Shown here: one piece after another, positions 5,271-15,208 of the stretch | Layout: each line of letters opens with the position of its first letter | Position numbering within the stretch: the first letter of the stretch is position 1 | IMG/VR virus record: IMGVR_UViG_3300030328_003240 | Location: 1-21,570 of that record | Strand: one strand, 5' to 3' | Length of the DNA stretch: 21,570 bases | Source: a virus | Notes under the pieces: model-generated | The model's input: only the letters and a program-made list of their open reading frames with translations | Told to the model about the DNA's origin: nothing | Database searches by the model: none | Position numbers and translations under genes: made by a program

Positions 5271-5318
5271 TTTATTTTTAATTGTCAAACTAATAATGTT
5301 TTGACAATTTAAAATAAT
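5271..5318 (-). repeat. Long AT-rich hairpin before the annealing-protein gene
   Basis: AATTGTCAAA (5280-5289) and TTTGACAATT (5300-5309) form a perfect 10-bp inverted repeat around a 10-base loop; after one mismatch, seven more pairs follow (5272-5278 with 5311-5317). It occupies nearly the whole spacer between a stop codon (5325-5327) and the AAAGGAG of the annealing-protein gene. Each arm contains TTGACA on one strand, but I find no -10 box at proper spacing, so it is more likely an operator or an RNA structure than a promoter. Confidence 0.65.
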
Positions 5319-6796: not shown

Positions 6797-6802
6797 AACA
6801 AG

Positions 6803-6831
6803 ATTATAACATAATAGAGATGAACTCGGAA
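6803..6831 (-). promoter_or_regulatory. Probable leaderless promoter (TATAAT six bases before ATG)
   Basis: On the minus strand a perfect TATAAT (6808 to 6803) is followed by CTTGTT and then the ATG of the 76-aa gene. Seventeen bases upstream of the box is TTCCGA, a weak -35 match. With normal spacing the first transcribed base falls on or beside the A of the ATG. This arrangement is common in actinobacteria and their phages. Confidence 0.65.
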
Positions 6832-6846
6832 GGTTATAGAAGAATT

Positions 6847-6996
6847 GAAGTGGTGTTCACTAAGGTAATTATATATAACGTGAGTGTCATTACCCGTTCG
6901 TAGCTCTCTTACGACTCTATTCCACTTCTAGTGAGAGTAACCATAAACTAGGAAAGGAGAACTAGCCATATCAGTTGCCTGATATAGATTACTCTC
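6847..6996. ncRNA. Two adjacent multi-helix structured elements (candidate RNA)
   Basis: This roughly 200-base spacer holds no gene but two nested inverted-repeat domains. Domain 1: GAAGTGG (6847-6853) pairs CCACTTC (6922-6928), enclosing GGTAAT/ATTACC (6864-6869, 6889-6894) and TCGTA/TACGA (6898-6902, 6910-6914). Domain 2: GAGAGTAA (6933-6940) pairs TTACTCTC (6989-6996), enclosing a CTAG-CTAG pair (6949-6952, 6963-6966 approximately) and the perfect hairpin ATATCAG/CTGATAT (6968-6974, 6979-6985). On the minus strand that last loop is GCAA, a stable GNRA tetraloop, favouring a minus-strand RNA. It lies between the VWA-gene stop and the leaderless promoter, so it would be a 3' UTR or independent RNA. 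No known class recognised. Confidence 0.5.
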
Positions 6997-7000
6997 CTAA

Positions 7001-8530
7001 TTATTGTACCTTATTCAATTCCAATGCGAAACGTTTTACCTCATCAATATCAGCAAGTCGCATTATTCCATTTCTTAGCATAATTTGTTTACAATCCTGT
7101 AGTAATCCATATGCATTAGAATTATTTCTACCAAATACATACATATCCGATACCCATATTCTTTTAGGTGGTTGTTTTGCTAACCAACGTAAAGCCATGC
7201 CGTCTATAACATTTCCTTCACCACTATGTAAATCAAGATAATTTTCATCTACACGTTTACCATTTTTAGCTATGATACGTAAGTTTCCTTTATCGTAACT
7301 TCCGTTATACATAGCAATAGTAACAGCAGGAACTTCTTGCATGATATCTAGTATGTCCTGTCCATTAAAACTCATTGAACCACTTGCGTCAATGAGAACA
7401 GTACCACCATATACACGTTGCTTTTGTGAAAAGACTTGCTTATCTATACAATATCTATTCATATATCTAGGTATAGTCCCATAATCCATTGGTCTATATT
7501 TACGACCACCTTTTATGCGACCTTGTAGATTAACTGTAAGCTCGGGATTATGTGTTTTCATATCTCCCCATGCAGTTTTGTAATTATCTTTATCTACTTG
7601 ATAATCCATACCTCTACGTGTTGTATTACCTTTTTCTAACCTATCAAATATTTCCTTTTTATTACGTGAATATAAGTCATCAACAGTTAACTCTTTATCA
7701 CGTCTATTATAAGACCTATTGTTTTGTTCCTTTTCTTCTTCTTCAAGACAAGGCTCACACTCACATTCTTCCTCATGTCTTTCAGAATTAGGTTGTTGTT
7801 CTCTAAGGCTTTCCAACACTTCTTCAGGTGTTGGTTTATCTGCAAACTCAGCAAGTAAAGGCGCTAATTCTTTAGCAACGTTTCTTGTATGGTTGTAAGA
7901 TATTTTAGCTCTTAGAGTATATCCCGTATGATTTTTAATCATTTTGAGATAAAAGTATTTAGCTTTTTGAATAGCCCAATCAATATCCAACTCTCTTGCA
8001 TATGTAAGCTCTTTTCTTTCAAGAACTTCTTGATATACGTCCATAAAGATATTCCACTCAATGCCATCAGGTTCTTTCACACCCCAAGAACTTCTATGTA
8101 AAGTTTCATAATCCCATGCGCATGCTAGTAAATATTTAACTATGTCTGCAACAGAAGATGTATAAATTAGTTTTGCTACTAAACGTTTAGTATCTTCCAC
8201 ACATCTGACAGGTTTATTTATAAACAAACCATGTCTGTTAAGTAAATAGTGAACTCTCACTTCTTCACATAACTCTACTGCCATAGCACTTTCATTTTCT
8301 TTTAGCCTACCCATAGTTTTGGGAGACCACTTAACGTGTCCTAATTCGTGCCTTCTAATCATTTTGCTATGATTTTCTCCACACTCAATACATTTTCCGT
8401 CAAGTGGAACATACATCTTTCTGTCAAGATTGTTTGTTGCAGGTTGGTCATACTCTTCATGTATAGTCCAACCTGTTTCTCCTGAAACTATTTCGGGATA
8501 AGGAACGTGTTTTCTAGTATTCCTCGTCAT
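7001..8530 (-). CDS. VWA-domain protein with HExxH metallopeptidase-like motif (MoxR partner)
   Basis: A 509-residue protein. N-terminal part: a CIEC pair (about residue 47), then RRHELGHVKW with an HExxH zinc-peptidase motif (61-65) and, about 20 residues on, an acidic ELCEEVRVHYLL helix able to supply a third ligand. The middle is helical, with a CECEPCLEEEEKE acidic cysteine-rich linker near 256-268. The C-terminal VWA domain has an intact start of the metal-binding site, LIDASGSMS (about 379-387). This resembles cellular DUF2201-type and CobT-like partners of MoxR ATPases. I prefer the ATG at 8530 (17-base overlap with the ATPase gene); an ATG at 8551 is also possible. Substrate unknown; peptidase activity is inferred from the motif only. 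Confidence 0.8.
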   Translation of the reverse strand: MTRNTRKHVPYPEIVSGETGWTIHEEYDQPATNNLDRKMYVPLDGKCIECGENHSKMIRRHELGHVKWSPKTMGRLKENESAMAVELCEEVRVHYLLNRHGLFINKPVRCVEDTKRLVAKLIYTSSVADIVKYLLACAWDYETLHRSSWGVKEPDGIEWNIFMDVYQEVLERKELTYARELDIDWAIQKAKYFYLKMIKNHTGYTLRAKISYNHTRNVAKELAPLLAEFADKPTPEEVLESLREQQPNSERHEEECECEPCLEEEEKEQNNRSYNRRDKELTVDDLYSRNKKEIFDRLEKGNTTRRGMDYQVDKDNYKTAWGDMKTHNPELTVNLQGRIKGGRKYRPMDYGTIPRYMNRYCIDKQVFSQKQRVYGGTVLIDASGSMSFNGQDILDIMQEVPAVTIAMYNGSYDKGNLRIIAKNGKRVDENYLDLHSGEGNVIDGMALRWLAKQPPKRIWVSDMYVFGRNNSNAYGLLQDCKQIMLRNGIMRLADIDEVKRFALELNKVQ

Positions 8531-9269
8531 CTTCAACTTCACTTTCCACATTCAAGTCAACGTTTTCAGCTAACTTAATTGCGTCCATAAGTTCCTCTCC
8601 CCTATCTCCGAAGATAAGGATTGAGGCAGTATCTATATCGATACCTTTCTTTTGTAAGTCGAAGAACTCTTTCCATGCTCTAATGGAAATTCTTTCTTCA
8701 TTATCCTCACTAAGTGAAGTATCAACGATTACCTTATGCCAGCTTTCTGGAAAAGGTCTTATAGCTTCTGGGTGTATACTATCAACATGTATCTTTACAG
8801 GGAACCTATCCTTTAAAGCCATAGGTAAGCTCTCTGGTAAAGAGTTCGTTGTTGCAATAACCTGAAAGCCTTCGGCAGGCTTAACAGTTTCCTTTGTGTC
8901 ATTGTTAAGTGTCAATTGTGCAATAGCTTTGTCATCAAGTATTGCATGTAGGAATGTCATTGCGTCTGGAGAGGCATGGTCAATCTCATTTATAATCAAT
9001 CTTCCACCATTTCTCCACGCTTGTATAGCAATTCCGTCATGCCACTCAAACTGACCTGTATTAGAAGGTTTATAAAATCCTTCCAAGTTAGCGCTTGCCG
9101 TATCTTCGGTCATTGTTATTTGATAGACATTAGGCTCTCCGTCTATCCCAAGTGGTGCTTTTTCTTTTACTGCTGAGTAGGTCTTACCCGTACCAGGCGC
9201 ACCATAAAGCAATACTCTATCGCTTTTTCCTATAACAGCATTCACTAATTTCCAACAATCGTTGTCCAT
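8514..9269 (-). CDS. MoxR/CobS-type AAA+ ATPase
   Basis: A 251-residue AAA+ protein with Walker A GAPGTGKT (23-30), Walker B LIINEID (91-97), sensor 1 ATTN (139-142) and an ALKDRF arginine-finger region (151-156), ending in an acidic tail (VESEVEDDEEY). The arrangement matches the MoxR/CobS group (AAA_5), which remodel or load substrates together with a VWA-domain partner. The partner is the next gene, overlapping this one. The start is coupled by TAATG to the upstream 100-aa gene. In phages such pairs are known but poorly understood; roles in assembly, chelation or host-protein remodelling are only guesses. Confidence 0.9.
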   Translation of the reverse strand: MDNDCWKLVNAVIGKSDRVLLYGAPGTGKTYSAVKEKAPLGIDGEPNVYQITMTEDTASANLEGFYKPSNTGQFEWHDGIAIQAWRNGGRLIINEIDHASPDAMTFLHAILDDKAIAQLTLNNDTKETVKPAEGFQVIATTNSLPESLPMALKDRFPVKIHVDSIHPEAIRPFPESWHKVIVDTSLSEDNEERISIRAWKEFFDLQKKGIDIDTASILIFGDRGEELMDAIKLAENVDLNVESEVEDDEEY

Positions 9270-9571: not shown

Positions 9572-9588
9572 TTTTATCTCCTTTTCTC

Positions 9589-9645
9589 CTAACGTATTTG
9601 CTTATCTTTACCTCTATAAAATAAAGGTATTCTTCTATCTTCCAT
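9589..9645 (-). CDS. 18-aa possible mini-gene, doubtful
   Basis: An 18-codon frame (MEDRRIPLFYRGKDKQIR) lies in the 99-base gap between two larger genes. Its stop is immediately before the AGGAG of the 100-aa gene. No convincing ribosome binding site precedes the ATG, only an AAAGA stretch. It may be a leader peptide or chance. The same gap holds a short imperfect inverted repeat (TACCT...AGGTA, about 9609-9629). Confidence 0.2.
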   Translation of the reverse strand: MEDRRIPLFYRGKDKQIR

Positions 9646-9670
9646 AGAAATCTTTTAGTTCTTTTAAAAA

Positions 9671-10180
9671 TTATTCCTCCTCCCGTGCGTGTTCTTTTAG
9701 AAATTCTGATATTTCATCACTTATACCACCAATGTTTTCATTGACAGCTTCTTCTGTTTGCCTTCTCAATAATGGTTCGTTTTGCTTTATAAACGCTTGT
9801 ACAGAAGTTGGTTCTTGCATCATGTATTCCTGTAAAAGACCTTCATGTGTTAACCATTGACGGAAATCATCTAATATCTCTATATCAAATTCGTCTCCTT
9901 TATCAAGTACAAAGTCATGAAGTACCAAAGGATATTTCATCATAACCTCTGTCTTTCTTGCCATGTCTATTGTCAAGGCTCTGTTTATAGCATTTTGTAG
10001 AGACGTCTCTTGTAATTCGTATCTTGAAACCAAAATTTTTCTTTTCTTAAACATATCTCCTATGCTCATATGAACTTCGTTAAATTTATCTTCAAGAAAG
10101 TAAGCAACTTCTACATTATATGTATGCATTGTTCCTGTACTGACCTCTACAAAGTCTCTTTCTACTTCTTTTTCACTCAA
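9671..10180 (-). CDS. Hypothetical 169-aa protein, TTG start
   Basis: A soluble, acidic protein. It begins MSEKEVERDFVEVSTGTMHT, has a β-like stretch (HTYNVEVAYFLEDKFNEVHM), a helical centre (NAINRALTIDMARKTEVMMK) and an acidic helical C-terminus ending EFLKEHAREEE. No family recognised. The start codon is TTG with AAAAGGAG six bases upstream; no ATG fits. A multi-helix structured element (10203-10308) occupies the spacer just upstream of the ribosome binding site, so expression may be RNA-controlled. Confidence 0.7.
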   Translation of the reverse strand: MSEKEVERDFVEVSTGTMHTYNVEVAYFLEDKFNEVHMSIGDMFKKRKILVSRYELQETSLQNAINRALTIDMARKTEVMMKYPLVLHDFVLDKGDEFDIEILDDFRQWLTHEGLLQEYMMQEPTSVQAFIKQNEPLLRRQTEEAVNENIGGISDEISEFLKEHAREEE

Positions 10181-10202
10181 TGTTTTCTCCTTTTAATAAT
10201 TT

Positions 10203-10308
10203 GTAGTGCTGTGCAGAGCTAGACGTTCCTTTCAACGTTTTGTATTCTGCTTTTTATCGGTTGCCCGACACTAGACCTAATCTACCTATGTAGACCGACA
10301 AGCACTAC
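10203..10308 (-). ncRNA. Five-helix structured leader element (candidate cis-RNA)
   Basis: The spacer between two minus-strand genes holds five nested inverted repeats. P1 closes it: GTAGTGCT (10203-10210) with AGCACTAC (10301-10308), the latter overlapping the upstream stop codon. Inside, as read on the minus strand: P2 TCTAC-ATAG-GTAGA; P3 TCGG-GCAA-CCGA with a GNRA tetraloop; P4 GCAGA/TCTGC (10246-10250 with 10213-10217) enclosing P5 ACGTT-GAAAGG-AACGT. After P1 come AAATTATTAAAAGGAG and the TTG start. This compact multi-branch plan resembles riboswitches or other cis-acting RNAs in general form; I cannot match it to a known class. Confidence 0.6.
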
Positions 10309-10535
10309 TTTGCTTCCTGCTGGGTTGCTTTGTGTTTAATTTCGTCTATCACCACGTAATCATTTGCACCATACACTTTTTGCTTAGGTGTATTGTCATC
10401 TCCATATGTAATGGTTATTCGTCCAAATGCTTTTGATATACTAATGATAGGTAAACTTTCATACCCAACAGTAATCACATAATCCTCATTAGTTATATCT
10501 TTTGCACGTTTTGATAACATTTTAGGCTTTTTCAT
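10305..10535 (-). CDS. Hypothetical 76-aa protein
   Basis: A small basic protein (MKKPKMLSKRAKDITNEDYV... ending HKATQQEAK). It is β-rich in the middle (VITVGYESLPIISISKAFGR, then ITITYGDDN and YVVIDEI), which suggests a small β-barrel. Its ATG directly follows the stop of the 139-aa gene (TAAATG) with only a weak GGTGG site, so translation is probably coupled. Its stop codon lies in the 5' arm of the structured element downstream. No family recognised. Confidence 0.7.
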   Translation of the reverse strand: MKKPKMLSKRAKDITNEDYVITVGYESLPIISISKAFGRITITYGDDNTPKQKVYGANDYVVIDEIKHKATQQEAK

Positions 10536-10955
10536 TTACCACCAACAATATATTTTATAGTTCTTTTCAAAACATATATCAAATATTCTAGCTAAGTCAA
10601 GCAGTTCTGTTCTGCTTACTTTTTCACATGCCCACCATTCTCTATTTGGTGGTGCATTAAAGTACTCAGCTGTATTGTCTGTTGTGAAATCATCAATATC
10701 AGCAATTCTTTTGTCTCTCAGAAAATTCATAATTCCAATTGAAAGAGCATGTAAAGTTGCTCTCTCTATATAATTATCTTCATTCCCATATAAGACACTA
10801 TCTATACTTGTAATTTCACTTAACAAGCTATCAAATACTTTACCTCTGAAAGCATTTTCGCCTGTCATTATGCCACCAACTAAGTCTTGCGTTAGCGTCA
10901 AGACATTTGTATCTGTACAAGGACTTTCCTCGTATATAATGTTGTCAAGTCCCAA
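10536..10955 (-). CDS. Hypothetical 139-aa protein, TTG start
   Basis: A soluble acidic, mainly helical protein with several Cys and Trp residues (NREWWACEKVSRTELLDLAR, FDICFEKNYKIYCWW at the end). No family recognised. The start is a TTG six bases after a strong GAGGAGG site; no ATG is in place. It follows a spacer holding a perfect 16-bp inverted repeat and is coupled to the next gene. Confidence 0.7.
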   Translation of the reverse strand: MGLDNIIYEESPCTDTNVLTLTQDLVGGIMTGENAFRGKVFDSLLSEITSIDSVLYGNEDNYIERATLHALSIGIMNFLRDKRIADIDDFTTDNTAEYFNAPPNREWWACEKVSRTELLDLARIFDICFEKNYKIYCWW

Positions 10956-10983
10956 TTGAGACCTCCTCTCTCACATAATATTT

Positions 10984-11025
10984 ATATTAAATATGTTTAT
11001 CAATATGACTAAACATATTTAATAT
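10984..11025 (-). repeat. Perfect 16-bp inverted repeat hairpin
   Basis: ATATTAAATATGTTTA (10984-10999) is exactly complementary to TAAACATATTTAATAT (11010-11025), separated by a 10-base loop. It lies between the stop of the 76-aa gene (11065) and the GAGGAGG of the TTG-start gene. The rest of the spacer (11026-11064) is AT only, with a 12-bp tandem of the type TATTAATATATT. There is no GC core or T-run as in a standard terminator. Confidence 0.7.
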
Positions 11026-11064
11026 TATTTTTTATTAATATATTTATTAATATATTTATATTTG

Positions 11065-11295
11065 TTATTCTTCTTCTAATATTCCTAGCTCTTTTAGTTC
11101 AGCGTAGGTTTCTGGCGACGTGATAGCCATGAGGTTAATGATAAGCTGATTATTCATCTTTATCATTTCCATCATGTTTTGTATGGTCTCAACTGTCGCT
11201 TGTAAAGCTGTTGCCAACTCTATATTTACTTCATGTTGGTTATACTCTACGTTTTCCCCACCCGAAAAGTCAGGAATTTTTATGCCTTCGTCCAC
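11065..11295 (-). CDS. Hypothetical 76-aa helical protein, GTG start
   Basis: A small protein (MDEGIKIPDFSGGENVEYNQ...) whose centre (ATALQATVETIQNMMEMIKM, then NNQLIINLMA) is a single amphipathic, coiled-coil-like helix. It ends ILEEE. The start is GTG with AAGGAG about 7 bases upstream and overlaps the end of the membrane-protein gene by 26 bases. It may oligomerise through its helix. No family recognised. Confidence 0.65.
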   Translation of the reverse strand: MDEGIKIPDFSGGENVEYNQHEVNIELATALQATVETIQNMMEMIKMNNQLIINLMAITSPETYAELKELGILEEE

Positions 11296-11488
11296 TATTT
11301 TCTCCTTCGTTAAATTCGTTCTGTATTTTTACAGCACGTCGTCTCATATTTATAAGAGACTTTTCTATATTCCACTTTAGCTTGATTACTTCGCCAAGAT
11401 ACTGACCAAATGCCCATGCTATTGCGCATATATATAGAAAGAATAAAAAGAGCAATACAAATGCGTGAAATGGTATTATTTCATTCAT
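11270..11488 (-). CDS. Small single-span membrane protein
   Basis: A 72-residue protein with one transmembrane helix at about residues 9-29 (AFVLLFLFFLYICAIAWAFG) and a long basic, helical cytoplasmic tail (KLKWNIEKSLINMRRRAVKI). I chose the ATG at 11488, which overlaps the previous stop (ATGA); another in-frame ATG lies two codons earlier. It could be an early inner-membrane protein, for example for superinfection exclusion or host takeover, but nothing specific identifies it. Confidence 0.65.
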   Translation of the reverse strand: MNEIIPFHAFVLLFLFFLYICAIAWAFGQYLGEVIKLKWNIEKSLINMRRRAVKIQNEFNEGENSGRRHKNS

Positions 11489-11672
11489 CTTCATGCAAAC
11501 TGCGTCGTTTCAGGGCTTTTTCAACCTGATAAAGAACGCTTTCTTTATGCATAGCAACATAACTTTGCACAGGTGTACTACCTTTTTCTTTCCACATATC
11601 TAAGTCATTAACAATCCATGTAAGAATTTCTACAAGGTCGTCTTTACTTAGACTTTTGAGTATTTCTCTCAT
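11481..11672 (-). CDS. Hypothetical 63-aa helical protein
   Basis: A small soluble protein beginning MREILKSLSKDDLVEILTWI, with helices to the end (YQVEKALKRRSLHEDE). The ATG at 11672 is chosen because AAAGGAGG precedes it at good spacing; an upstream in-frame ATG at 11708 would lie inside the structured spacer. It is coupled by ATGA to the membrane-protein gene. No family recognised. Confidence 0.65.
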   Translation of the reverse strand: MREILKSLSKDDLVEILTWIVNDLDMWKEKGSTPVQSYVAMHKESVLYQVEKALKRRSLHEDE

Positions 11673-11691
11673 ATTTCCTCCTTTGCTATTA

Positions 11692-11873
11692 TAAATAGCT
11701 TGTAACACACAAACTTGTAAGCGTTTCTATCGCCCTACTTACAATTACACCTTTTATCTAGCGTTAGCGTTTCTTGATATCACAGTATCAATCAGCGTCT
11801 TGTTTCAGCATTTGTCACAATACTAGAATTTACTGATATACCTCAGGTATATTTATGTGCTACAAGCTATTTA
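11692..11873 (-). repeat. Terminal-inverted-repeat spacer element, copy A
   Basis: TAAATAGCTTGTA (11692-11704) is exactly complementary to TACAAGCTATTTA (11861-11873); after one A-C mismatch CACA pairs with TGTG. The right arm includes the stop codon of the upstream 37-aa gene. Inside lie further hairpins (minus strand): TTGTAAG/CTTACAA, TTGATA-CTGTGA-TATCAA and ATATACC-TGA-GGTATAT. The arms share a 17-base and a 15-base exact repeat with copy B (12006-12080), while the interiors differ in length and sequence. The region is otherwise non-coding. Confidence 0.7.
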
Positions 11874-11984
11874 CTCTACATCTAATATTTCATAGATGTC
11901 TTTTTCTGAAACATTCCATAATATTGATAACCATTTTATTATTTTTGCTCTTTTATCGCTTATAGTATTTTTTGTTTTAGCCAT
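11871..11984 (-). CDS. 37-aa small protein between structured spacers
   Basis: A 37-codon frame, MAKTKNTISDKRAKIIKWLS and then ILWNVSEKDIYEILDVE. AAGGAG lies 8 bases before the ATG. It reads as two short helices, like a minimal helix-turn-helix, but is too short to be sure. It is flanked on both sides by the paired terminal-repeat elements (copies A and B), and its stop is part of the copy A stem. Confidence 0.6.
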   Translation of the reverse strand: MAKTKNTISDKRAKIIKWLSILWNVSEKDIYEILDVE

Positions 11985-12005
11985 TTATTTATTCTCCTTA
12001 ATAGA

Positions 12006-12080
12006 TAGCTTGTAACACACAATTACACAACCTATTCGGTTACCTTACCAGCCATTAACCTCGTCATGTGCTACAAGCTA
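12006..12080 (-). repeat. Terminal-inverted-repeat spacer element, copy B
   Basis: TAGCTTGTA (12006-12014) pairs with TACAAGCTA (12072-12080), then A-C mismatch, then CACA/TGTG, exactly as in copy A. Inside, GGTTA (12038-12042) pairs with TAACC (12056-12060). TAGCTTGTAACACACAA (12006-12022) and ATGTGCTACAAGCTA (12066-12080) are identical to copy A termini. It precedes the AAGGAG of the 37-aa gene. Confidence 0.7.
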
Positions 12081-12096
12081 CCTACATAGTACGTAT

Positions 12097-12119
12097 AGCA
12101 ACAGGGCAATTGCTTTTTT
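12097..12119 (+). terminator. Weak terminator-like hairpin, plus orientation
   Basis: AGCAA (12097-12101) pairs TTGCT (12110-12114), followed by a run of T on the plus strand. The stem is only 5 bp. If functional it would stop antisense transcription entering the leftward operon. The surrounding spacer 12081-12145 has also a half copy of the type II motif (TAATTATATTAAGC at 12132-12145) and no gene. Confidence 0.25.
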
Positions 12120-12145
12120 ATGTAAGTAGCTGTAATTATATTAAG

Positions 12146-12304
12146 CTAAAAAGGTGCCTCGTCGTAAAACACCTCGTTTAAGTCATGTTCCTTTGCTATA
12201 TTATACGTCATTTTATCCAAATCACGTAATTGTTTTTCTGCCCATTTTTCTACAAAGAAACGAGACAATATCTTGTCATAGATAGTGTCAATTAAAGTTA
12301 TCAT
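12146..12304 (-). CDS. 52-aa hypothetical small protein
   Basis: A 52-codon frame beginning MITLIDTIYDKILSRFFVEK and ending NEVFYDEAPF. GAGGAGAG lies about 8 bases before the ATG. The pattern is helical with an acidic C-terminus; no cysteine pair or membrane segment. It follows a strong hairpin spacer. No family recognised. Confidence 0.65.
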   Translation of the reverse strand: MITLIDTIYDKILSRFFVEKWAEKQLRDLDKMTYNIAKEHDLNEVFYDEAPF

Positions 12305-12322
12305 AAATCACTCTCCTCTCTA

Positions 12323-12368
12323 TAATAACTTCGCAAGGGATACCTTAATATCCCCTACGAAACTATTA
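12323..12368 (-). repeat. Stop-anchored long hairpin
   Basis: On the minus strand TAATAGTTTCG, directly after the TAG stop of the 142-aa gene, pairs with CGAAGTTATTA (11 bp, two of them G-U wobbles that work only on this strand). After a 3x3 internal loop GGGATA/TATCCC... in minus reading GGGATA-TTAAGG-TATCCC closes the top. The element ends where the next ribosome binding site begins. Wobble pairs favour a minus-strand RNA. Confidence 0.7.
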
Positions 12369-12797
12369 CTAGCTCTTATCTTCAAAGGTTGCAGGTGTAG
12401 TCTCATCAGCAGGAAAAGTTAAGCCACTTGGCACTACAACTTCTGTTTTAGGTGCAGGTGTCTTTTTAGCAGGTGTTTTACCACCATTTCTCTTTGCCCA
12501 TGCTTTCTTACTACGTTCAGACCTTATATTAAATAAGTCCTTTTCCGTAACCTCTGATGTTTCAGAGTTAGCAAGTAATACAACCATATCCATTCCGTCT
12601 CTAAAATTCTTAGACATAGGGGAAACTATGTTATAACTTGCGTTATCTCCCTCTACAATTTTTTGAACTGCAAAGTAATGCTTTGGTTGTGTAGTATTAT
12701 CCCTAAGGACAAAATACTCATCACTCACAAGAGCATTGTCGTTTTCTCTATCTCTAATATCATAGATTGTTACTTGGTCGTTTTCGATTACTTTCAA
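12369..12797 (-). CDS. Hypothetical 142-aa protein with Ala/Pro/Lys tail, TTG start
   Basis: The N-terminal ~105 residues form a β-rich domain (DQVTIYDIRD, DEYFVLRDNTTQPKHYFAVQ, MDMVVLLAN) followed by a basic, disordered-looking stretch (KKAWAKRNGGKTPAKKTPAPK) and a short tail. No family recognised; the plan of a folded domain with a Lys/Ala/Pro tail is common in phage nucleic-acid-binding proteins. The start is TTG, 4-5 bases after GAGGAGG; this is the first sizeable gene after a run of mini-genes. Confidence 0.7.
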   Translation of the reverse strand: MKVIENDQVTIYDIRDRENDNALVSDEYFVLRDNTTQPKHYFAVQKIVEGDNASYNIVSPMSKNFRDGMDMVVLLANSETSEVTEKDLFNIRSERSKKAWAKRNGGKTPAKKTPAPKTEVVVPSGLTFPADETTPATFEDKS

Positions 12798-12836
12798 AAT
12801 ACCTCCTCAGTATTTTTGTCGTCGTCAGACTATTTA

Positions 12837-12882
12837 GATTAATAAATAATCCCTCTACTCCGTAGAGGGTTATTTATTAATC
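12837..12882 (-). repeat. Type I hairpin, copy 1 (CCCTCTAC core)
   Basis: CCCTCTAC (12851-12858) pairs GTAGAGGG (12862-12869) around a 3-base loop; one unpaired T (12850), then 13 more pairs of AT-rich sequence (12837-12849 with 12870-12882). It precedes the ribosome binding site of the 142-aa gene, with GACGACGACAAA between. The strong GC-core stem could act as a terminator, but there is no T-run. Confidence 0.75.
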
Positions 12883-12932
12883 GATATTAATTAATATTAA
12901 TTAGTATCTCTAGCCATGCTGTCTGCTGAACA

Positions 12933-12977
12933 TAACTATATTTAAGCCCTCACTTGCGCAAGAGCTTAATATAATTA
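12933..12977 (-). repeat. Type II stop-codon hairpin, copy 1 (degenerate)
   Basis: Outer arms TAACTAT (12933-12939) and ATAATTA (12971-12977, containing the stop codon of the 46-aa gene) with inner AAGC/GCTT. The outer arms pair through one G-U wobble on the minus strand. The inner stem is weaker than in copies 3 and 4 and contains the palindrome CTTGCGCAAG. Confidence 0.55.
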
Positions 12978-13115
12978 CAATCCCCCAACTATGTATCCTG
13001 CTACATGGTCTGGACTATTGTCTATACATGCGTCGCAAAATTTATATTTAATATCTTTATATATTTTGTCCACATATATTTTTCCATTTTTTCTAGTACA
13101 ACAAGTATTTTGCAT
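12975..13115 (-). CDS. 46-aa cysteine-containing mini-protein
   Basis: A 46-codon frame (MQNTCCTRKNGKIYVDKIYK...) with Cys5, Cys6 and a CDAC pair near residue 27, a possible zinc site. AGGAAAGGAA lies about 7 bases before the ATG. Its TAA stop is the first element of a type II hairpin. It is the last of four tightly packed mini-genes (13577 to 12975). No family recognised. Confidence 0.65.
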   Translation of the reverse strand: MQNTCCTRKNGKIYVDKIYKDIKYKFCDACIDNSPDHVAGYIVGGL

Positions 13116-13129
13116 ACTTATTCCTTTCC

Positions 13130-13288
13130 TTAGAATTTTTTGTACCCATTAACATATTGTTTCTTGTAACAACCCCAACAATATTCCCATGTATACATAA
13201 ATTCCTTGAATTTATAATTCCATTGTTTTATTGCTTTTACAGGTTGTTTGCAATGATTACAAGTAATAAGTACTTTTTCACTTATCAT
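13130..13288 (-). CDS. 52-aa zinc-ribbon-like mini-protein
   Basis: A 52-codon frame with CNHC at residues 10-13 and CWGC at 37-40, a CxxC...CxxC spacing that fits a treble-clef or zinc-ribbon knuckle, rich in Lys, Trp and Tyr. AAAGGA precedes the ATG. It starts 3 bases after the stop of the basic 55-aa gene. Zinc binding is inferred. Phage mini-proteins of this type may bind RNA, DNA or host enzymes. Confidence 0.7.
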   Translation of the reverse strand: MISEKVLITCNHCKQPVKAIKQWNYKFKEFMYTWEYCWGCYKKQYVNGYKKF

Positions 13289-13290
13289 TT

Positions 13291-13458
13291 CTATTCCTTT
13301 TCGCCTAGCTTTTTGAATACCTTACGTCTGCGCCTTTGGTCTTTTGTCCACCTCAACAAAAAATACCAATTAAACCATTTGATAATTTTGTTTTGTCCAT
13401 AGACATAGTTGTACCACTCTGCGCGACTAAGTATTTTGCTCCTTCTATATCCATTCAT
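13291..13458 (-). CDS. 55-aa very basic, aromatic mini-protein
   Basis: A 55-codon frame starting MNGYRRSKILSRAEWYNYVY with WFNWYFLLRWTKDQRRRRKV towards the end. About 15 Lys or Arg and many Trp/Tyr residues suggest binding to nucleic acid or membrane surface. It is coupled to the upstream 40-aa gene by an ATGA overlap, and GGAGC-like sites are absent, so translation probably relies on coupling. No family recognised. Confidence 0.6.
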   Translation of the reverse strand: MNGYRRSKILSRAEWYNYVYGQNKIIKWFNWYFLLRWTKDQRRRRKVFKKLGEKE

Positions 13459-13577
13459 AGTATTTTGTAATAATTGGCATAAAAATTGCCTATTATATTA
13501 CCTAACTTGTTGTTAGGCAATCTATCTACTATGTATTGAAAAAGAATATGCTTGTACATATTTAGTTTTCGTCTCAT
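13455..13577 (-). CDS. 40-aa mini-protein
   Basis: A 40-codon frame (MRRKLNMYKHILFQYIVDRL then PNNKLGNIIGNFYANYYKIL). GGAG lies 6 bases before the ATG. It opens the four-gene mini-cluster and follows a type I hairpin plus an ACGACGACGACAAACGACG stretch. A basic, aromatic helix is the only feature. No family recognised. Confidence 0.6.
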   Translation of the reverse strand: MRRKLNMYKHILFQYIVDRLPNNKLGNIIGNFYANYYKIL

Positions 13578-13607
13578 ATTTCTCCAATCGTCGTTTGTCG
13601 TCGTCGT

Positions 13608-13649
13608 TAACTAATTAACCTCTCTACTCTGTAGAGAGTTAATTAGTTA
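13608..13649 (-). repeat. Type I hairpin, copy 2
   Basis: CTCTCTAC (13620-13627) pairs GTAGAGAG (13631-13638), loop of 3, one unpaired C (13619), then 11 more pairs (TAACTAATTAA/TTAATTAGTTA). Compared with copy 1 the core has a compensated change (CCC/GGG to CTC/GAG) and an entirely different but still fully paired AT stem. As in copy 1 it is followed on the minus strand by a GACGACGAC stretch and a ribosome binding site. Confidence 0.75.
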
Positions 13650-13667
13650 TATTTTCATAGTTACGTA

Positions 13668-13712
13668 TAACTATGTCCAAGCGCCCAATTTCTCGGACGC
13701 TTAATATAGTTA
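13668..13712 (-). repeat. Type II stop-codon hairpin, copy 2
   Basis: Outer TAACTAT (13668-13674) pairs ATAGTTA (13706-13712, including the stop of the 59-aa gene); inner AAGCG/CGCTT with a mismatch then CC/GG. The outer arms differ from copy 3 by a compensated base pair. A second palindrome (CATAGTTA/TAACTATG) overlaps it on the left, allowing an alternative fold. Confidence 0.7.
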
Positions 13713-13889
13713 CCTACAATACCTATGCCTACCTGCGCACCTATTACAAACTGCGTAGTCTGTAAAGCTGTATCGTCTACATCTGATACACCTATTTGCG
13801 CCCATTAGCATAGCTTGGCGTTGCCTTGCTTTATATTGTAAATGAAGGTCAAAATCCCCCTCTACGAACGGGCTTTCATAATTATTCAT
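13710..13889 (-). CDS. 59-aa zinc-finger mini-protein
   Basis: The C-terminal half has CIRCRRYSFTDYAVCNRCAG with two CxxC pairs, followed by an Arg/His-rich end that adds a further Cys: a clear zinc-binding knuckle. The acidic N-terminal half (MNNYESPFVEGDFDLHLQYK) is separate. I chose the ATG at 13889 because the AAAGGAG site lies just before it; a GTG at 13910 would put that site inside the gene. The Shine-Dalgarno sits in the loop of a 6-bp hairpin. A nucleic-acid-binding or host-modulating role is plausible. Confidence 0.7.
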   Translation of the reverse strand: MNNYESPFVEGDFDLHLQYKARQRQAMLMGANRCIRCRRYSFTDYAVCNRCAGRHRYCR

Positions 13890-13906
13890 AACGAACTCCT
13901 TTCGTT
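13890..13906 (-). promoter_or_regulatory. Shine-Dalgarno displayed in a hairpin loop
   Basis: On the minus strand AACGAA-AGGAG-TTCGTT forms a 6-bp stem whose 5-base loop is the ribosome binding site; ATG follows at once. Similar loop-displayed sites occur before the 87-aa gene (14510-14523). Confidence 0.5.
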
Positions 13907-13913
13907 TCACTTA

Positions 13914-13958
13914 TAATTATGGCAAAGCGCCCAATTTCTCAGGCGCTTAATATAATTA
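13914..13958 (-). repeat. Type II stop-codon hairpin, copy 3 (best example)
   Basis: Outer TAATTAT (13914-13920) pairs ATAATTA (13952-13958), inner AAGCGCC (13925-13931) pairs GGCGCTT (13942-13948), with a 10-base loop. The right outer arm starts with the stop codon of the 23-aa gene. The element fills most of the gap to the next gene. Confidence 0.75.
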
Positions 13959-14027
13959 CACGTGGTATTTTTTCCACAATGTTCTGTCGTTACGACACAT
14001 ACAACGAGTATTTTTGCAAATTTTCAT
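13956..14027 (-). CDS. 23-aa cysteine/arginine mini-protein
   Basis: A 23-codon frame, MKICKNTRCMCRNDRTLWKK and YHV, with three cysteines (C...CMC). It is coupled to the 41-aa gene by an ATGA overlap and ends exactly in the type II hairpin, the position at which other genes of this region end. That placement is the main argument for it being real. Function unknown. Confidence 0.45.
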   Translation of the reverse strand: MKICKNTRCMCRNDRTLWKKYHV

Positions 14028-14149
14028 GCTTTTACTCGGTCTCGGTTGTATTGTTCGGCGAGTTGATATAACAATGCACGTGCTATATCGTCTCGTCGTG
14101 GTCGTTCTTTGCCTACTACATAGTAAGCGATTGTTTTAGTTTTAGGCAT
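14024..14149 (-). CDS. 41-aa hypothetical mini-protein
   Basis: A 41-codon frame, MPKTKTIAYYVVGKERPRRD and then DIARALLYQLAEQYNRDRVKA, with a clear amphipathic C-terminal helix. AGGGGG lies 6 bases before the ATG. Its MxKTKT start resembles that of the 87-aa gene upstream, as does its GC-richer codon use. A hairpin CGCAC/GTGCG (14166-14185) lies in its leader. Confidence 0.6.
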   Translation of the reverse strand: MPKTKTIAYYVVGKERPRRDDIARALLYQLAEQYNRDRVKA

Positions 14150-14165
14150 ATCTGCCCCCTTCTAT

Positions 14166-14185
14166 CGCACACACTCACACGTGCG
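14166..14185 (-). promoter_or_regulatory. Leader hairpin with GTGTGAGTGT loop
   Basis: CGCAC (14166-14170) pairs GTGCG (14181-14185); on the minus strand the loop contains TGTGAGTG, a word also found in the loop of the GCTCG/CGAGC hairpin (14525-14542) before the 87-aa gene. Both precede an AGGGGGC ribosome binding site. Confidence 0.5.
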
Positions 14186-14199
14186 CAATTCTTGAAACA

Positions 14200-14246
14200 T
14201 AGTTATAACCAAGCGCCCACACACTCGCAGGCGCTTAATATAATTA
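14200..14246 (-). repeat. Type II stop-codon hairpin, copy 4
   Basis: Outer TAGTTAT (14200-14206) with ATAATTA (14240-14246, includes the stop of the 87-aa gene; one wobble or mismatch depending on strand) and inner AAGCGCC (14211-14217) with GGCGCTT (14230-14236). The loop differs completely from copy 3 while both arms are kept. Confidence 0.7.
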
Positions 14247-14507
14247 CGCGTTAGCTTTTTCGGTCAATTCTCTGCCCTTTGCGTGCAGTTCCCAAAACGC
14301 CTTCGCACTCACGTATGAGCGAATTGCTTTGCCATTCACCATAACAGGCAGGCGCTCTATGTACGTGAGTTCCTCGCCTGTCATTCCGCACACGACTACC
14401 TTCGCAGGCTCTTTCGCCTTCGCCTCATGCTTTTTGAGTTCTGCCAAAAGCTCTGCTTTTGTGTAGTCGCCGATATTCTTCGTAGTTTTTGTCTTGGTTT
14501 TTCCCAT
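14244..14507 (-). CDS. 87-aa hypothetical protein, first gene of the leftward operon
   Basis: An 87-residue protein starting MGKTKTKTTKNIGDYTKAEL, with a short charged helix (LLAELKKHEAKAKEPAK) and a compact domain (VVVCGMTGEELTYIERLPVM to ELHAKGRELTEKANA). The frame is open much further upstream, but the ATG at 14507 is the only start with a good site (AGGGGG) and the upstream part is Cys-rich, low-complexity and full of hairpins. Base composition is richer in G+C than the other minus-strand genes, which may mean recent acquisition. As the promoter-proximal gene it is probably expressed very early. No family recognised. Confidence 0.65.
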   Translation of the reverse strand: MGKTKTKTTKNIGDYTKAELLAELKKHEAKAKEPAKVVVCGMTGEELTYIERLPVMVNGKAIRSYVSAKAFWELHAKGRELTEKANA

Positions 14508-14509
14508 AG

Positions 14510-14568
14510 GGAAGCCCCCTTCCTGCTCGCACTCACACGAGCAACTTGCAACTCGACACTTTGCCGAG
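14510..14568 (-). promoter_or_regulatory. Structured leader of the first leftward gene
   Basis: Three successive hairpins on the minus strand: CTCG/CGAG (14552-14555, 14565-14568), GCTCG-TGTGAGTG-CGAGC (14525-14542) and GGAAG-GGGG-CTTCC (14510-14523), the last displaying the ribosome binding site in its loop four bases before the ATG. This may regulate translation of the first early gene. Confidence 0.5.
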
Positions 14569-14582
14569 CTGAGAGGTTTATT

Positions 14583-14618
14583 GTAATATATCCCTCTACC
14601 TTGTAGAGGGTATATTAC
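14583..14618 (-). repeat. Type I hairpin, copy 3
   Basis: CCCTCTAC (14592-14599) pairs GTAGAGGG (14603-14610), loop of 3, one unpaired T (14591), then 8 pairs (14583-14590 with 14611-14618) of yet another AT sequence. The unpaired base is at the same place in all three copies. Confidence 0.75.
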
Positions 14619-15140
14619 TAATACTTTCCCGAAATCAGACCTTGTGCAATTGTGAAACCTCAATGATTTTATAGGCGTACACGTAGCGAGTGCTACCTGC
14701 ACAGGAATAATATTCCCATGCACACACACATGGATATGCGTACACACGTAAGGTATCAAACACCACTATATGTTGTGCATATCAAAACAAACCATACCAT
14801 ATCTTGTGGTGTCTCTCGCACATGCGTACAGGTACACGCAATTACGCACAGTACCACCCATGCATTATGCGCACGCAGTACTACGCACGCGTATGACCTG
14901 CAGGTATCAATGTGGCGTCCCCTCTTGGATATATGTAAGTAGAAAATAATATTCTGGTAATATCTAAGTGTTATTGGGATATATTGAACATAGCGGGCTA
15001 TTACTATGAGAGGTCTGATTAAAAATTTTTAATAGGTCTTGGGTACTTAGTTTGCGTTTCTACGTTATAGTCGTTACTATCCTAAGCTTTTTGCATCCCG
15101 ATTGCATCTTTACCTGTGCCTACTTACTAGCTCCTAATGT
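14619..15140. other. Divergent control region, no gene; repeats, possible origin
   Basis: About 520 bases between the leftward and rightward operons without a credible gene. It contains GCGTACA three times (14675, 14738, 14824), AGGTATCAA twice (14751, 14902), the inverted pair ACACCAC/GTGGTGT (14760, 14806), a 16-base palindrome ATTAAAAATTTTTAAT (15018-15033), and AATCAGACCT (14633-14642) against AGGTCTGATT (15011-15020). The part 14660-14910 is rich in alternating purine-pyrimidine CAC/GTAC/GCGC words, unlike the rest of the window. Operators, early promoters or a replication origin would fit; none is proven. Confidence 0.45.
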
Positions 15141-15169
15141 TTGTAATTATTCTTAATATAGCATATAAT
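15141..15169 (+). promoter_or_regulatory. Probable promoter of the packaging/virion operon
   Basis: TTGTAA (15141-15146), a 17-base spacer, and a perfect TATAAT (15164-15169). Transcription would begin near 15176, giving a leader of about 33 bases that includes a GAAGGG site before the terminase ATG. Confidence 0.7.
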
Positions 15170-15208
15170 AAACCCAACGCAAATAACTACTATTTATGAA
15201 GGGTTTTA

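Follow-up and report, generated by a model that had tools for sequence, protein, structure and literature searches.

Covarying intergenic helices with exchangeable payloads in the early operon of an uncultured, apparently marine phage

Features of the early operon

The DNA analysed here, referred to as the window, is a stretch of 21,570 nt from IMG/VR record IMGVR_UViG_3300030328_003240. It carries a hairpin-rich early operon on the minus strand, which, judging from gene order, is probably transcribed as one multi-gene message. An earlier note had described the hairpins in the long spacers of this operon as one kind of structure. All those it listed are present, at most a few bases from where it placed them, yet they fall into several unrelated families and represent three different things: type C elements, short stop-codon hairpins (families A and B and several single hairpins) and a separate RNA, here called S RNA. 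The hairpins, RNA elements and small genes of the window located below lie on the minus strand.

Family A comprises four hairpins (14200-14246, 13914-13958, 13668-13712 and 12933-12977), and a small gene (13710-13889) lies between the second and third. All four hold a stop codon inside the 5' arm, and so do the type C element at 11691-11874 and a branched structure at 10203-10308 closed by GUAGUGCU/AGCACUAC. Family B consists of a hairpin at 14583-14618, with an AT-rich outer stem and CCCUCUAC/GUAGAGGG, and two further hairpins (13608-13649 and 12837-12882) that are each followed by a common GACGACGAC stretch; these three sites (near 14600, 13630 and 12860) were missing from the earlier list. 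The remaining single hairpins are a 22-bp hairpin with a 4-nt loop between the genes for 142-aa and 52-aa proteins (12322-12369), an AT-rich 16-bp intergenic hairpin (10984-11025) and an AT-rich hairpin between two genes (5271-5318). No T-run follows the hairpins, except for a weak one after 12851-12869.

Among the fetched loci, families A and B and the single hairpins are shared only by a sister contig (L231), in which the hairpins are 99.0% identical and the genes 92.3% (p = 2e-9). The hairpins at 12322-12369 and 10984-11025 are 100% identical there, as are 106 of 106 bases of the branched structure. L231 lacks the small gene at 13710-13889, its flanking family A hairpins being collapsed into one hybrid hairpin, and also a three-gene block that has the fourth family A hairpin as one edge. 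It further lacks a 37-aa gene (11871-11984) located between the two type C elements of the window; one different type C element replaces both elements and the gene. Two small-gene gains or losses relative to L231 are bounded by hairpins, and one of the four small-gene indels examined is not.

Folding stability and terminators

The minus-strand folding energy of each spacer was compared with 300 dinucleotide shuffles of that spacer. In 11 of the 13 spacers z ranged from -2.5 to -8.8, with 0-6 of the 300 shuffles as stable as the real sequence, while the spacers at 6797-7003 (z -1.7) and 9572-9673 (z -1.5) are not outstanding by energy alone. The latter spacer was absent from the list in the earlier note. 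The mean z for coding segments of this operon is -1.7, so the excess of the spacers over this background is smaller than over the shuffles. The number of long hairpins per kb is approximately six-fold higher in the early than in the late regions.

Stable hairpins 3' of stop codons might be taken for intrinsic or attenuating transcription terminators, a reading that we consider very improbable. Nearly all lack a T-run, the combination of a G+C-rich stem and a following T-run was not found, and terminator-like sites occur at the shuffled level (8 versus 5.6), while a genuine T-run terminator stands separately in locus L140. Intrinsic terminators were rejected on the lack of T-runs and of an excess over shuffles.

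Type C elements

The earlier note had treated 12006-12080 and 11692-11873 as separate items; they are copies of one element type with differing payloads. Type C element 1 (12001-12085) has a 22-bp conserved helix (GUAGGUAGCUUGUAGCACAUGA ... UUGUGUGUUACAAGCUAUCUAU) enclosing a 41-nt payload related to L114, and its 3' arm stops just short of the ribosome binding site of the 37-aa gene. Just upstream of it lies a small hairpin, GCAAUUGCCCUGUUGC (12098-12113), and similar GCCCUGU-loop hairpins occur upstream of type C elements in other phages. Type C element 2 (11691-11874) has the helix of element 1 and a far longer branched payload, the final 40 nt of which are 95% identical to L179. Its 5' arm contains the stop codon (11871-11873) of the 37-aa gene, and AAAGGAGG, which belongs to the gene at 11481-11672, comes after its 3' arm.

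Thirty terminase relatives have at least 7.5 kb of upstream sequence, and 28 of them contain type C elements, 46 copies in total and without exception on the early strand. The elements also occur in more than 119 IMG/VR contigs. A reversed-pattern control matched 0 of 44 contigs, against 29 of 44 for the true pattern. Bacterial genomes contained no type C element; a single match there was dismissed as a short palindrome hitting both strands. A seeming copy in Rhodococcus phage ReqiPepy6 was attributed to chance, as it had no score in the helix scan.

None of the copies overlaps a gene of at least 60 aa with a ribosome binding site, and the start of such a gene lies 10-27 nt downstream in 70 of 212 copies. 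For many others the next start is over 60 nt away, and clusters of elements occur in noncoding stretches (L140), so these copies are not explained by simple gene separation. The hairpins might instead insulate translation, blocking read-through or hiding and releasing the next ribosome binding site so that the small genes are translated independently. This idea fits the stop codons that family A, element 2 and the branched structure carry in their 5' arms, and also the many cases in which the 3' arm abuts the next ribosome binding site. We nevertheless regard it as improbable: the ribosome binding sites lie outside the stems, many copies have no gene nearby, and conserved G.U positions and payloads would be left unexplained.

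The helix is uninterrupted over 22 bp, with a strongly conserved sequence and a sharp boundary, and it contains wobble pairs (G.U at -6, -2 and +8, U.G at +13) in 82-92% of copies. Covariation was assessed in 115 unique arm pairs gathered by arm similarity alone, in which 97.4% of cells are paired. They contain 142 compensatory double changes (mean 24 and maximum 44 with shuffled partners). Broken pairs number 62, against a mean of 243 and a minimum of 212 when partners are shuffled. A terminase-linked set of 33 rows gave 41 both-side changes versus 7.9, a value reached by 0 of 500 shuffles, and was also far above slid partners, a control that keeps relatedness. Compensatory change of this kind strongly supports pairing of the type C helix in RNA, as judged from the compared sequences, and the maintained G.U positions disfavour a DNA-only palindrome, which would not keep them.

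The earlier note had proposed a layer of RNA processing, stability or coupling control, and had held that equally stable shuffled spacers, or homologous phages lacking paired substitutions, would speak against it. Shuffled spacers fell short of the real ones in 11 of 13 cases and homologous phages have many compensatory changes; together with the fixed G.U positions, the transcript orientation and the early-region hairpin excess, this strengthens the RNA part of the proposal.

Payloads and their exchange

Type C payloads have a median length of 42 nt (typically 35-60 nt), and those of 258 elements form 127 clusters. At orthologous spacers with both flanks homologous, the payload is unrelated in 24 of 67 contig comparisons; in the pair L060/L118, unrelated payloads lie between flanks that are 99% and 100% identical over 200 nt. 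Identical payloads are also found within unrelated flanks, and payload families are conserved across phages. In these comparisons the payload is swapped as a whole unit within a constant helix.

Payload family F1 has 28 distinct copies with covarying stems of their own; 20 are inside a high-scoring type C helix, and the majority of the remaining copies sit in one that is shorter or broken. As a group, payloads are only slightly more stable than shuffled sequences (mean z -0.6), so some may be unstructured. ARAGORN detected no tRNA, either in the window or among 60 loci, and the window had no match to the Rfam 15 covariance models at the curated threshold. Among 13 element-bearing loci the only Rfam match was a tmRNA-like piece outside the elements, and the L193 region, which holds payload F1, gave only a sub-threshold chance match. 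A tRNA, tmRNA or known Rfam RNA was rejected as payload on these grounds, and neither helix nor payloads match any RNA family catalogued in Rfam 15.

These data bear on a reading that we regard as possible, if tentative: the helix may be mainly a scaffold, type C elements being small functional RNAs displayed on a shared stem that a single protein, of phage or host origin, recognises. The payload would be a protein-binding, antisense, decoy or ligand-sensing domain, and swaps would reflect selection for new specificities, for example against host defences or competing phages. The conservation of payload families across phages, their internal covariation, their replacement at otherwise identical loci, the number of clusters at a typical length of 35-60 nt and the noncoding clusters of elements all agree with it. 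It is weakened by small-loop copies with almost no payload (L010, L022 and L029) and by the short hairpins of families A and B and others that fill like spacers without one, and no binding protein was identified.

Comparison with known systems

Y RNAs and YrlA present a variable remainder on a common Ro-binding stem; type C shares this arrangement, but no Ro-type partner was found for it. According to Dunn and Studier, the early multi-gene transcript of phage T7 is reportedly cut at intergenic RNase III hairpins into gene-size messages. Type C elements are likewise hairpins in the spacers of early phage genes that are probably transcribed together, with base pairing kept by compensatory change. 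The T7 sites are cleaved by RNase III, whereas cleavage at type C is only predicted, and we know of no exchangeable payloads at T7 sites, nor of a helix sequence conserved across phages there.

The extended start-associated sequences (ESAS) of Cluster K mycobacteriophages are 17-bp inverted repeats with a variable spacer of 4-13 bp, located just upstream of the translation starts of non-structural genes (PMC3203893); base changes in their two halves give no support to pairing in RNA, and protein binding to the DNA is the preferred explanation. Type C resembles them as a repeated inverted repeat upstream of phage gene starts and differs in its strongly supported pairing.

Correia elements (CREE/NEMIS) of Neisseria are intergenic, with inverted repeats of ~26 bp around a core, and in mRNA they fold into a hairpin that RNase III binds or cuts (PMC2649163). 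Type C shares the intergenic position and the inverted repeats enclosing a sequence. Correia elements are bacterial, with a conserved core and target-site duplication, and as insertions would leave empty sites and lie in either orientation; type C is phage-borne, its arms covary, the enclosed sequence is unrelated between copies even at orthologous sites, no duplication was seen, and orientation is fixed. Integron attC sites are inverted repeats between small cassettes, with a terminal structure ranging from 3 nt to a branched fold (PMC2727003). They resemble type C in the variable tip and the small cassettes between them, but they act as folded single-stranded DNA, require an integrase and have extrahelical bases, an unpaired central spacer and little sequence conservation, in contrast to the uninterrupted, conserved helix with fixed G.U pairs seen here.

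These likenesses, namely the variable terminal structure of attC (PMC2727003) and the mobility of inverted-repeat-bounded Correia elements (PMC2649163), together with payload and gene exchange at joints formed by hairpins, would suit hairpins that are DNA-level exchange sites with RNA folding as a by-product. Fixed G.U wobbles and the single transcript orientation make this unlikely in our view. A tyrosine integrase such as IntI (PF00589) was encoded in 0 of 44 contigs, which may be incomplete, and integron-like recombination was rejected accordingly. Homologous type C sites are occupied in 292 of 302 cases, and the 7 inspected of 10 apparently empty sites showed no clean insertion with target duplication, so a transposable miniature element was also rejected. 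The cassette exchange suggested in the earlier note is supported as a pattern, with payloads and small genes differing between near-identical phages at hairpin joints, and fails as attC-like recombination.

Proposed function

No counterpart of a conserved covarying helix with a replaceable RNA module was found in Rfam or in the literature searched. Our preferred reading, to which we assign a probability of about 0.45, is that the helices are RNA processing or protection sites in the early mRNA that double as joints for payload and small-gene exchange. The RNA elements would punctuate the early operon and act in the transcript, where a double-strand-specific host factor, with RNase III as the leading candidate, may cut or bind them. 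This would separate the very small genes and leave defined, protected ends at the next ribosome binding site. The short hairpins would do a related job with small loops, and at type C elements the same event would set the payload free, or present it, as a small structured RNA. RNase III was encoded in 0 of 50 contigs, so a phage-encoded enzyme was rejected and the host would have to supply it. The arms are alike between copies and phages and thus offer short homologies for recombination, possibly through the phage's own annealing protein, by which payloads and single small genes could move as cassettes. The strong sequence conservation of the helix exceeds what a single-purpose processing site needs, and this counts against the processing model.

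Should the modules function as RNAs in their own right, the phages would carry a large natural library of small structured RNAs already mounted on a stem, and the complete turnover of modules at loci that are otherwise the same would suggest selection for diversity. Should the helices alone matter, the RNA punctuation of this phage operon would still be unusually complete, and it would offer a test, defined by sequence, of how very small genes are kept apart within a polycistronic message. More speculatively, and rather doubtful when taken as a whole, one large, apparently marine phage lineage might use a standard RNA stem as a socket into which small RNA devices are fitted and exchanged. The devices would come from a common pool, probably of hundreds of families, and be swapped at fixed loci between near-identical genomes; they would form a fast-evolving arsenal of decoy, antisense or protein-binding RNAs directed at host defence or at rival phages.

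Phage lineage and host

The carriers are a group of uncultured, apparently marine phages. Related isolate phages gave no nucleotide match, the terminase is only 25-30% identical to those of Streptomyces phages and an uncultured phage, and searches with a 516-aa protein found no close relatives. The host is possibly actinobacterial; WhiB was found in only 1 of 100 element-bearing contigs and does not settle the question.

S RNA and the VWA-domain gene

The VWA-domain protein encoded at 7001-8551 contains a HELGH motif, and its partner is an ATPase (phrog_16448, phrog_249). On account of these two features it was not taken for a Ro homologue, and a Ro-like RNA-binding role for it was dropped. 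The sequence 3' of this gene, which the earlier note had listed with the other spacer hairpins as 6847-6996, holds the separate, conserved S RNA (6847-6928). Its region gave no Rfam match at E<=1; S RNA covaries strongly and is an independent RNA class absent from Rfam. It is widespread and single-copy, with a closing helix (GAAGUGG/CCACUUC), a hairpin (UCGUA/UACGA) and the near-invariant segments AAUAGAG, GAGAR and AGUGAACA.

Gene content and relatives

The window, a 21.6-kb IMG/VR virus record, has its early operon of very small genes on the minus strand; next on that strand come genes for a CobS/MoxR-like ATPase, a VWA-domain protein bearing a HELGH motif, an exonuclease and a single-strand annealing protein. 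On the plus strand the terminase large subunit comes first. Neither a tRNA nor an Rfam match was detected in the window, and no nucleotide relative was found among 50,697 phage records. The terminase, which bears a distant likeness to those of Streptomyces phages, relates the window to 330 IMG/VR stretches, 80 of which (L003-L082, 72-79% identity) were used as terminase relatives. The relatives are metagenomic contigs throughout, often fragments. A divergent noncoding region (14640-15208), rich in alternating TGTG/GCGT stretches and in inverted repeats, separates the early operon from the terminase and is about 87% identical in the sister contig L231.

Hairpins in the early operon

The stop-codon-anchored hairpins that an earlier note had named in the operon spacers were all found in the window, and in 11 of 13 spacers the fold is more stable than in dinucleotide shuffles, with z from -2.5 to -8.8. 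The mean z for coding sequence in this operon is -1.7, so the genes are somewhat structured themselves. In the terminase relatives the density of long uninterrupted hairpins is 0.18 per kb for the early region, 0.03 for the late region and 0 for shuffled sequence. Between the window and L231 the hairpins are 99.0% and the genes 92.3% identical (Fisher p = 2e-9); it follows that constraint is stronger on the hairpins than on the adjoining proteins.

By sequence, the hairpins fall into three classes. Type C, a 22-bp conserved helix around a payload, has two window copies, C1 (12001-12085) and C2 (11691-11874). Short hairpins 3' of stop codons comprise family A (four copies, A1-A4), family B (three copies) and singles; among the fetched loci, these were confined to the window and L231, and a helix scan revealed hairpins of similar plan and different sequence in other phages. 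The third class, the S RNA (6847-6928, minus strand), is separate from both. A repeated leader sequence, GACGACGAC, lies 3' of two family B hairpins (13605 and 12826, minus strand), directly ahead of the next ribosome binding site.

The type C helix

Both window copies end in AGCUUGUAGCACA and UGUGUUACAAGCU, ends found again in most terminase relatives and in at least 119 IMG/VR contigs. The outer boundary of the helix is sharp, pairing being 97% at the last pair and 52% one step beyond, and G.U pairs occupy fixed positions (-6, -2, +8 and +13, numbered from the first base of AGCUUG). Since a pattern search fixes the core, copies were also gathered by arm similarity alone, with no pairing criterion. 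The 115 unique arm pairs so obtained contain 142 compensatory double changes, compared with 24 (maximum 44) when partners were shuffled, and 62 broken pairs, compared with 243 (minimum 212). The terminase-linked subset covaries likewise, and loses this when partners are slid, a control that keeps the relatedness ignored by partner shuffles. A pair-scoring matrix scan returned 327 copies, some with the inner ten pairs wholly exchanged for other complementary bases, and 323 kb of shuffled sequence gave none; the 327 copies were excluded as covariation evidence because they were chosen for pairing.

Type C lies on the early strand in all 46 copies in terminase relatives, and at least one copy is present in 28 of the 30 relatives having at least 7.5 kb upstream. 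No copy overlaps a convincing gene, and in 70 of 212 a start codon with ribosome binding site follows 10-27 nt downstream. Type C is an RNA-level helix that selection maintains; it follows the direction of the transcript, sits at gene borders and has exchangeable contents. The RNA layer that the earlier note had proposed is supported by pairing kept through compensatory change in homologous phages, by the fixed G.U pairs and by the orientation.

Among 44 long element-bearing contigs, 31 have a terminase of the window's family (51-78% identity); the remainder, including one of 71.8 kb, gave no match to it, though contigs may be incomplete. The true pattern occurs in 29 of 44 contigs and the reversed pattern in none, and the search of bacterial genomes turned up a single short palindrome. 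One of 100 element-bearing contigs (L136) encodes a WhiB regulator (75 bits, G033:20078-20260), which suggests that this phage has an actinobacterial host; the carriers are apparently marine. Some phages have noncoding stretches with type C clusters; L140:3550-4660 (minus strand) is about 1 kb of noncoding sequence with five elements and, between them, a true T-run terminator and then promoter-like sequence.

Payloads and their exchange

Payloads measure 3 to 198 nt (median 42), and 258 distinct elements form 127 payload clusters, 62 of them singletons. As a group their stability is weakly above shuffled sequence (mean z -0.6); within payload families, loops are conserved and stems covary. One family, F1, occurs in 35 contigs, with 20 of 28 distinct copies inside a high-scoring type C helix (score of at least 46) and most others still enclosed by a shorter or broken one. 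Two stems within F1 itself are 99% paired, and their both-side changes number 25, where shuffles give 7.5; a third, pseudoknotted helix is proposed and never varies. Hairpins like the T-arm of tRNA, such as GUAGGUUGAAUUCCUAC and AUAGGUUGGAAUCCUAU, occur in several unrelated payloads (L039, L014, L016, L104). A stem capped by UAGG..G.UGGAAACG, common to payloads at L140:3575, L179:3134 and 3303 and window 11710-11750, is a possible recurrent RNA motif in otherwise different payloads.

Where both element flanks were homologous (67 contig comparisons, not all independent since some share a contig or lineage), the payload was the same in 41 and unrelated in 24; L060 and L118, with unrelated payloads, have flanks that match at 99% and 100% over 200 nt on either side. 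In the other direction, flank similarity within 300 nt is absent from 142 of 237 pairs with the same payload, several of these payloads being 98-100% identical. Homologous sites were occupied in 292 of 302 comparisons, and seven of the ten apparent empty sites, when inspected, showed no clean insertion with target duplication, several keeping outer helix remnants or another element.

The alignment of the window with L231 contains four small-gene differences. L231 has one type C element, with unchanged outer ends but other inner arms and payload, in place of C1, a 37-aa gene and C2; one hybrid hairpin stands where the window has A2, a small gene and A3; a three-gene block, one edge of which adjoins A4, is missing; and an extra gene is not hairpin-bounded. 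Three of these differences agree with the suggestion that hairpins let gene cassettes be exchanged and the fourth does not, which supports the hairpins as frequent but not sole exchange joints. At L034:2709-3069 two type C elements stand head to tail, compared with one in the sister contig L033, the junction falling within the repeated CUAUCUAU end.

Possible function and known systems

The most economical reading is that the helix would be a processing or protection site within a long early message. T7 early messages, studied by Dunn and Studier, are reportedly cut by RNase III. A 22-bp helix would fit this enzyme, whose distal contacts are present with substrates longer than 11 bp (PMC4858673). 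As 50 contigs yielded no phage-encoded RNase III, we infer that the host enzyme would be used. Nearly as likely, type C would be a common stem presenting diverse functional RNAs, a reading that accounts better than processing for the conservation and replacement of payloads; both may be true together.

Type C may belong with the T7-type processing sites. Correia elements are closest in plan but have their own conserved core and transposon-like insertion (PMC2649163). Integron attC sites share the variable tip, whereas they are DNA structures needing an integrase (PMC2727003), which was sought and not found in 44 element-bearing contigs. The ESAS of Cluster K mycobacteriophages agree in position and inverted repeats (PMC3203893), but RNA pairing is not supported in them. 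Novelty was judged against Rfam and the open-licence literature.

The S RNA and a tmRNA-like RNA

Among the fetched loci the S RNA has 30 relatives; Rfam gives no match to it at E up to 1. In 20 aligned rows, 12 pairs are 100% paired, and both-side changes number 64, compared with 17 for shuffles. A pattern search gave at least 119 stretches; among the matches listed, 85 of 92 distinct ones have the expected 3' arm, a few of those lacking it being clearly unrelated, and the 52 distinct arm pairs are paired in 96% of cells. The RNA lies 3' of the VWA-domain gene in 45 of the 77 listed matches having an upstream gene.

An 80-nt RNA at L005:4769-4848 (minus strand) separates a type C element from the gene that follows. 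It matches tmRNA in the tRNA-like domain (Rfam RF00023, 50 bits) and has one hairpin in place of the whole message part.
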